Shown: positions 6,171-7,977 of the stretch, piece by piece
Layout: every line of letters starts with the position of its first letter
Numbering within the stretch: the first letter of the stretch is position 1
Origin: a bacterium
GTDB lineage: Bacteria > Patescibacteriota > Microgenomatia > Curtissbacterales > GWA2-41-24
Direction: 5' to 3'
Assembly: GCA_021813945.1 (NCBI GenBank)
Contig: JAKAJD010000001.1
Span: forward strand, 399,072-432,411
Length of the DNA stretch: 33,340 nt
Notes under the pieces: model-generated
Databases searched by the model: none
Told to the model about the DNA's origin: nothing
Seen by the model: only the letters and a program-made list of their open reading frames with translations
Made by a program: the position numbers and the translations under genes

Positions 6171-7085
6171 ATGCAAAAGGCACCGCCAACACCTAAAGGT
6201 TTTCGCGATATCTTGCCTGATTTAGCCCAAAAACGCAGGGATGCAATAAGAAAAATTGAAGATGTCCTCTCGGAAGCCAGCTTTGTACCGCTAGAGACTC
6301 CAACTATAGAATTTGCAGAAACTTTAACCGGAAAATATGGCGAAGAAGAGCGCTTAATTTACAAATTTAAAGATCGCGGAGATCGGGAACTTGCTCTCCG
6401 TTACGATCTGACCGTTCCCCTCGCCCGTTTTGTCGCCAACAACCAAAATTTAATCGAAAAAGGTCCATTCCGCAGATACCAAATTGGCCAGGTTTTCCGC
6501 GGTGAAAATCCTCAACACGGCCGTTACCGTGAATTTACGCAATTCGATTTCGATACAGTCGGGTCAGATCGCTTAGACGAGGACGCAAAAATCATCGCAA
6601 CTGCAATAATGTCGGTTAGAAAGCTAGGACTTAAAAATGCCCAAATGGCAATCAATGACCGCAACATTTTCGCCAACATACACATAGACATAGTGCGAAT
6701 GATAGATAAAATTCATAAGGTCGGAAAAGATCAATTAGCAAAAGAGCTTAAAGATAAAGGTTTTTCGGAAGCAGACGTTTTTACTTTGACTAATATAGAT
6801 AAAACCTCAATGTCTCCTAACACGAAACTAATATTTACTATTCTGGAGAAATACAACCTAAAAGAAAATAGAGATTTCTTTTTCGATCCTACACTAGCCA
6901 GAGGCTTGGACTATTACACTGGCTCTATTTTTGAGCTTAAACCGGACGGTAATCCTGCATCGCTCTCAATCGGGGCAGGAGGTCGCTATGACAACCTAAT
7001 CGGCATGTTTTCCGGAAGACAAATTCCCGCCGTGGGTTTTTCTTTTGGCATTGACCGCTTGATAGAAGCTATTGATGAAGCTTAA
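6171..7085 (+). CDS. hisS: Histidyl-tRNA synthetase lacking the anticodon-binding domain
   Basis: The enzyme charges tRNA-His with histidine. All class II catalytic elements are visible in the 304 residues: motif 1 from KGFRDILPD; motif 2 with FRGE at 109-112 and RYREFTQFD at 118-126; the histidine-specific RGLDYY at 244-249 with the catalytic arginine R244; GGRYD at 270-274; and motif 3 GFSFGIDRL at 289-297. The protein stops seven residues after motif 3. The normal C-terminal anticodon-binding domain of about 90-100 residues is missing. The stop is clean and the next gene starts inside it, so this is not an obvious frameshift. HisZ, the regulatory paralogue, also lacks this domain, but it usually loses the catalytic motifs, which are intact here, and no his biosynthesis genes are nearby. 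Confidence 0.88.
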   Translation: MQKAPPTPKGFRDILPDLAQKRRDAIRKIEDVLSEASFVPLETPTIEFAETLTGKYGEEERLIYKFKDRGDRELALRYDLTVPLARFVANNQNLIEKGPFRRYQIGQVFRGENPQHGRYREFTQFDFDTVGSDRLDEDAKIIATAIMSVRKLGLKNAQMAINDRNIFANIHIDIVRMIDKIHKVGKDQLAKELKDKGFSEADVFTLTNIDKTSMSPNTKLIFTILEKYNLKENRDFFFDPTLARGLDYYTGSIFELKPDGNPASLSIGAGGRYDNLIGMFSGRQIPAVGFSFGIDRLIEAIDEA

Positions 7086-7977
7086 GCCCGCCTTTCTGCT
7101 ACTTGTTACATCTACTGTAATTTGGGGTGCCACAGCCCCAATTATGAAAGTCACCCTCACCCAAGTTCCCCTGTTTACACTAGCCTTTACCCGCCAAATT
7201 TTGGCAGCCGGCTTACTTTTACCTTTTGTTTTAAATGATCTGAAAATTCAAAAAGAGGATTTAAAACCGCTTATTCTGACAACACTTTTGGGCACAAACA
7301 TCAACTTGTTTTTATTTTTTAAAGGGCTCGAGTTAACAGAGGCAATAAACGCATCAATAATAACAGCAGCCGTTCCGATAATAACTCTTTTTGCAGCCCA
7401 CCTTTACCTAAAAGAAAAACTCACCTTAAGGTTGATTTTAGCCTCAATTACTGCATTTTTAGGGACTTTAGTCATAGTCGGGGCGCCAATCCTTTCGCTA
7501 AACTTAAAAGCAGCCATTGGAAATTTGCTGCTGATTGCGGCAACTTTTGCCTTTGTCGCCTACGAAATCTATGCTAAAAAGTTGTTGCAAAAATACTCCG
7601 CTCTAAAGCTTACATTTTTTATGTTCGTGATAGCAGCAGTTATCTTTATGCCATTTTCGGCCTTTGAGTTTATTAAAAACCCCAATTGGCCGGCATCAGT
7701 AAATATTGAAGGTTTGCTTGGAATTCTATATGGGGTATTTCTGGCATCTGCCCTCGCCTCTTACTTTTGGCAAAAAGGTCTATCGCTGCTTCCTGCTGGA
7801 GAAGCAGCCCTTTTCTTTTACATTGACCCGATTTCCGGCATAATAGCCTCTATTATGCTTCTTGGGGAAAGAATTTCCCATTCATTTACGCTTGGGGCAA
7901 TCCTAATCGTTGTAGGCGTCTTTTTAGCAGAACACCACCGCAAAAACCACATTTTGCATAAAAGGCGCATAAATTGA
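7075..7977 (+). CDS. EamA/DMT family transporter
   Basis: The 300-residue protein has ten hydrophobic helices in two homologous five-helix halves, the standard layout of drug/metabolite transporters of the EamA family. The N-terminus FLLLVTSTVIWGATAPIMK carries the typical WG motif of the first helix. The second half repeats the pattern with YEIYAKKLLQKYS and SYFWQKGLSLLPAGEAA. The substrate (amino acid, metabolite or drug) cannot be inferred. The ATG at 7075 overlaps the end of hisS by 11 bases and implies translational coupling; a TTG at 7072 is a possible alternative. Its role may be to import a nutrient this reduced organism cannot make, but this is inference. Confidence 0.88.
   Translation: MKLKPAFLLLVTSTVIWGATAPIMKVTLTQVPLFTLAFTRQILAAGLLLPFVLNDLKIQKEDLKPLILTTLLGTNINLFLFFKGLELTEAINASIITAAVPIITLFAAHLYLKEKLTLRLILASITAFLGTLVIVGAPILSLNLKAAIGNLLLIAATFAFVAYEIYAKKLLQKYSALKLTFFMFVIAAVIFMPFSAFEFIKNPNWPASVNIEGLLGILYGVFLASALASYFWQKGLSLLPAGEAALFFYIDPISGIIASIMLLGERISHSFTLGAILIVVGVFLAEHHRKNHILHKRRIN

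Follow-up and report, generated by a model that had tools for sequence, protein, structure and literature searches.

Histidine is the textbook case of acceptor-stem identity; the anticodon is secondary and is read by the C-terminal domain of histidyl-tRNA synthetase (HisRS). In the motif 2 loop of the Escherichia coli enzyme, R123 reads G-1 and Q118 reads C73 (PMC10100707). Minihelices with G-1:C73 are efficiently charged by HisRS; in vivo the anticodon contributes too, via the C-terminal domain (PMC9976931). An engineered E. coli HisRS catalytic fragment is called "active" in the title of Augustine and Francklyn 1997 (Biochemistry 36:3473, cited in PMC7373986 and PMC7308279), and the E. coli catalytic domain alone, used as a negative control, gave background activity only (PMC7308279). 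HisZ (TIGR00443) is a paralogue of the HisRS catalytic domain that has no anticodon domain and acts as the regulatory partner of HisG in histidine synthesis. Outside the HisRS family, the viral Tupanvirus mini-AlaRS is a natural synthetase that lacks its main tRNA-binding domain and uses the acceptor stem only (PMC10036535).

The hisS gene described here lies in a stretch of 33,340 nucleotides (the window) and encodes a HisRS that consists of the catalytic core. It shares that orthologous core and all its motifs with the canonical bacterial HisRS (TIGR00442), and full-length Microgenomatia hisS genes stand in the same neighbourhood; unlike the canonical enzyme, it has no C-terminal HGTP anticodon-binding domain (ABD). 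It resembles the E. coli fragment in being cut down to the catalytic domain, but that fragment is man-made, whereas the truncation described here is natural, clade-wide and, as far as sequence comparisons indicate, selected. No earlier description of a natural HisRS lacking the ABD was found in the literature searched, which took in few subscription papers.

RESULTS

The protein ends shortly after motif 3

Features of the locus are listed in Table 1. The NCBIfam hisS equivalog model TIGR00442 has a cut-off of 286.75 bits; the margin of the 304-aa protein over it is slim because the last 92 model positions have no counterpart. In a Pfam search the protein matched the tRNA-synt_His and class II core domains; HGTP_anticodon was not among the matches. 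Motif 2 reads FRGENPQHGRYREF and is intact, and across 40 short sequences the class II motifs and the RGLDYY motif are invariant or nearly so. An AlphaFold model (pTM 0.80, mean pLDDT 77.9) matched HisRS structures with a TM score of 0.80. Confidence was low at residues 1-11, 47-62 and 110-119, the last of these being the motif 2 loop.

Table 1. Features at the short hisS locus, in window coordinates
Feature	Position	Strand	Remarks
hisS, encoding the short HisRS of 304 aa (catalytic core alone)	6171..7085	+	294.9 bits on TIGR00442 (above cut-off), aligned to positions 2-314 of the 406 in the model
Class II motif 2 region, residues 102-129	6474..6557	+	Q115 and R120 are the counterparts of E. 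coli Q118 and R123
Histidine-binding motif ARGLDYYTG, residues 243-251	6897..6923	+	Intact
Class II motif 3 PAVGFSFGIDR, residues 286-296	7026..7058	+	Intact
8-residue tail LIEAIDEA and TAA stop	7059..7085	+	Point where full-length orthologues run on for ~100 residues into the ABD
EamA-family transporter gene	7075..7977	+	11-base overlap with the end of hisS; neighbour kept at short and long hisS loci

A first-pass annotation of this DNA had described a HisRS that retains all class II motifs and lacks the ABD. Both statements were borne out: motif 2, ARGLDYYTG and motif 3 could all be read in the open reading frame, and Pfam recognized the core only, the ~100-aa ABD being absent. The annotation had counted seven residues after motif 3; the count is 8, motif 3 ending at residue 296. 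Its view that a frameshift is unlikely to have removed the domain also held, since the ATG of the EamA-family gene at 7075 and the hisS stop at 7083-7085 overlap cleanly and no ABD was found downstream of the short hisS in three frames read from 15 relatives. Frameshift or read-through as a source of the missing C terminus was therefore rejected. A longer TIGR00442 match in one genome (G007) crosses four stops, and no ABD lies in any open frame there.

No second hisS and no detached anticodon domain were found in the genome

The window belongs to a Microgenomatia genome of the Curtissbacteria group (1,129,191 bases, or 1.13 Mb; 3 contigs; 94% complete). The first-pass annotation had suggested searching it for another full-length hisS or a stand-alone ABD, and neither turned up. 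A hisS search of this 94% complete genome found no second hisS; two weaker matches were parts of one 408-aa ThrRS. HGTP anticodon domains occur three times in the genome, in the ThrRS and in two proteins that we take, from reading their sequences, to be GlyRS and ProRS. A more sensitive ABD profile was made from 15 Microgenomatia HisRS anticodon domains and gave E values of 1e-42 to 1e-48 on full-length controls. Neither the HGTP search nor this profile gave any sign of a stand-alone ABD in the window's genome. In 21 short-HisRS genomes the profile yielded weak matches only, nearly all in frames sized like other synthetases; a chance-level match of 16 bits fell in a 300-aa frame of G055. An apparent stand-alone ABD in G035 sits at a contig end beside an EamA-like gene and was interpreted as what remains of a full-length hisS cut by the contig boundary rather than as a split gene. 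For want of an HGTP domain in cis or as a separate gene, the short protein is a HisRS variant and not a canonical member of the family.

Two other synthetases of this genome drew attention. In the ThrRS (408 aa; L086:2553-3779; G000:C2, about 325.5-326.8 kb) the match to TIGR00418 begins only at position 170, so the protein is without the usual N-terminal portion and is a second reduced synthetase. A ProRS-like protein of 427 aa (L036:1498-2781; G000:C2, near 493 kb) is apparently without the editing insertion.

The short form characterizes part of the Microgenomatia

Relatives were surveyed as well, as the first-pass annotation had proposed. The short form is present in 44 of 373 sampled Microgenomatia genomes and is the only HisRS found in all but one bin. 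By family it occurs 15 times in f1, 13 in f3, 14 in f17 and once each in f10 and f39, and the window's own family has it in 15 of 15 sampled genomes (one copy, in G005, is frameshifted, and one bin, G014, has extra matches). Named relatives include Candidatus Curtissbacteria, Daviesbacteria, Woesebacteria and other Microgenomates. Score and frame length separate the two forms cleanly: among the matches listed, those above 410 bits are frames of 289-355 aa and those below 406 bits are full-length frames, except for G005 (frameshifted) and G278 (a match without the N-terminal part). In a phylum-wide sample of 380 genomes, the intact short forms among the matches listed are all in Microgenomatia. 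Because the same truncation point recurs in the whole clade, the truncation is not a product of chance.

Five genomes that consist of one contig have a single HisRS match (G055, G136, G194, G219 and G232). Four of them, G055, G219, G232 and G136, appear to correspond to CP066688.1, CP066686.1, CP066693.1 and CP011214.1, respectively. The G232 sequence contains masked stretches, so the absence of a second hisS is weaker evidence there. An apparent 10,841-codon open frame around its ThrRS (L210, G232:C1:716000-725000) is an artefact of a masked N run. The short hisS of G005 (L071:1053-1951, G005:C14) is split into two overlapping frames by a frameshift or an assembly error. A 4.7-kb contig of G014 (L081:878-3684, G014:C70) carries two tandem full-length HisRS-like genes in a bin that also has a short HisRS. 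These were not accepted as a genuine second hisS; the second of the pair lies far from other Microgenomatia on the tree, and the contig is probably foreign to the bin.

A tree built from catalytic cores unites the 40 short sequences in a single clade (SH-aLRT 100), for which one change suffices. The nearest full-length sequence is that of a Daviesbacteria genome (L151, support 91). The gene order hisS-EamA-rpmE-prfA is common to short and long loci, and at both an MBL-fold gene often lies upstream of hisS on the other strand. A single clade in a neighbourhood shared with the long loci argues for one probable loss of the domain, in place. Judged from these sequences, the short gene is the orthologous hisS minus its 3' third and not a paralogue. 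The core of the short forms is as long as that of the long orthologues. Values of dN/dS are 0.05-0.21 (pairs unsaturated at synonymous sites), a range that places the short hisS under purifying selection. Both forms are present in families f3 and f17, and even in genus g69, where G071, G164, G207 and G307 have the short form and G119, G201, G283 and G289 the long one. Such a mixture points to later replacement through transfer, or to repeated sorting.

tRNA-His and the residues predicted to read it are conserved

The tRNA-His gene of the window's genome (G000:C2:269356-269429, minus strand) has a GUG anticodon, an encoded G-1 and C73, and of the distinct tRNAs listed for that genome no other has C73. 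A DNA pattern proved too narrow for finding such genes (5 true tRNA-His in 34 short genomes), and a covariance model was used instead. All tRNA-His genes examined, from 22 short-HisRS and 15 long-HisRS genomes, encode G-1 and have C73, and GUG is kept in all those examined from the 22 short-HisRS genomes. Altered tRNA-His was considered as a form of compensation and none was seen, G-1, C73 and GUG being alike in short and long genomes. The tRNA thus shows no visible change upon loss of the domain.

The motif 2 residues R120 and Q115 were equated with E. coli R123 and Q118 by spacing within PQxGRxR, and both are invariant (40/40 short and 30/30 long sequences). The first-pass annotation had suggested that the enzyme may recognize its tRNA through the acceptor stem, and this proposal fits the encoded G-1:C73 together with these conserved residues. 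Since the E. coli catalytic domain alone gave only background activity, simply cutting an ordinary HisRS short may not suffice, and the short clade would therefore probably carry compensating changes. L80 and G106 are fixed in the short clade, and long relatives have another residue there (mostly Q at the former position; Q in 30/30 at the latter). Also fixed in the short clade are F109, where long sequences mostly have W, and T123, where they mostly have L; both F109 and T123 occur in some long sequences. Lying in or near motif 2, these four residues are candidates for offsetting lost tRNA affinity; they may equally reflect neutral shared ancestry.

DISCUSSION

We strongly favor the reading that the short protein is the sole HisRS of its genome, that the ABD was lost in place once with the short gene then kept by selection, and that tRNA-His is selected at its acceptor end. 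A single event in a Microgenomatia ancestor would have removed the C-terminal HGTP domain from hisS in place, and selection would have retained the short gene since. We infer from its status as sole HisRS in many genomes that the short protein charges tRNA-His with histidine. It would activate histidine normally and pick tRNA-His via the acceptor end, motif 2 R120 reading G-1 and Q115 reading C73, and it would not read the anticodon. Charging from the acceptor end alone is the most likely mode, which would make the protein a natural counterpart of the engineered E. coli fragment. It is likely, with somewhat less assurance than the reading as a whole, that this sole HisRS is blind to the anticodon clade-wide and that histidine identity in the clade rests only on the acceptor end (G-1:C73). 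By analogy, the nearest parallel to the short HisRS is the Tupanvirus mini-AlaRS, which belongs to another family and is viral; AlaRS, moreover, never reads the anticodon anyway.

Two alternatives would preserve recognition of the anticodon. In other families, synthetases with their parts divided among separate proteins are known, and here the anticodon might be bound in trans, by the HGTP domain of a different synthetase or by some unrelated protein that binds tRNA, so that two-ended recognition is restored. Weak ABD-profile matches in ThrRS and GlyRS, as shared ancestry predicts, are in line with such a partner, and the domain searches used would miss a trans-acting helper whose fold is different. 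Against it, the window's genome has no orphan HGTP domain, and the matches in the 21 short-HisRS genomes sit in frames the size of other synthetases, bar the one in G055; we consider a partner in trans unlikely. The anticodon might instead still be read by a surface of the catalytic or insertion domain, the HisRS insertion module being listed as tRNA-binding (PMC10810186). The core, however, is unchanged in length relative to long orthologues and thus has no added module that might extend to the far end of the tRNA, which makes this reading very unlikely.

The remaining alternatives question the gene itself. A decaying or mis-assembled hisS, with the real HisRS in an unsequenced part of the genome, would be in keeping with a genome that is incomplete and in 3 contigs and with the frameshifted copy in the relative G005. 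But the truncation is found in 44 genomes, several of them (G055, G136, G194, G219 and G232) in one contig with a single match; dN/dS is well below 1, and hisS overlaps cleanly with the next gene. Decay or mis-assembly is accordingly highly improbable. Least credible of all is the possibility, named by the first-pass annotation, that the protein is HisZ, the regulatory subunit of ATP phosphoribosyltransferase, rather than a synthetase. HisZ likewise lacks the anticodon domain, and the genome has a weak HisG-like ORF of 287 aa, above the Pfam cut-off and below that of NCBIfam. The ORF (L087:289-1152, G000:C2:487-780) adjoins a greA-like gene. The score and pathway tests for HisZ nevertheless fail here: the protein clears the hisS cut-off and falls far under that of the hisZ model TIGR00443 (165.9 bits vs 271.65), and a search of the window's genome found no hisD. 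Catalytic residues are invariant throughout the short clade, and if the protein were HisZ the cell would be left without any HisRS, in many genomes.

The preferred reading, loss of the ABD from a sole HisRS that selects tRNA-His at its acceptor end, has consequences beyond this locus. Evolution has apparently removed the domain in dozens of species, all in a group of tiny bacteria known only uncultured, and left the tRNA unchanged. The clade offers a natural setting in which to ask how far recognition of the acceptor end by itself can sustain accurate translation and which changes in the core compensate, and the presence of short and full-length forms within genus g69 provides matched pairs for comparison. 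The short form is compact as well, and the anticodon of its tRNA should be freely changeable, which would be useful for genetic code expansion.
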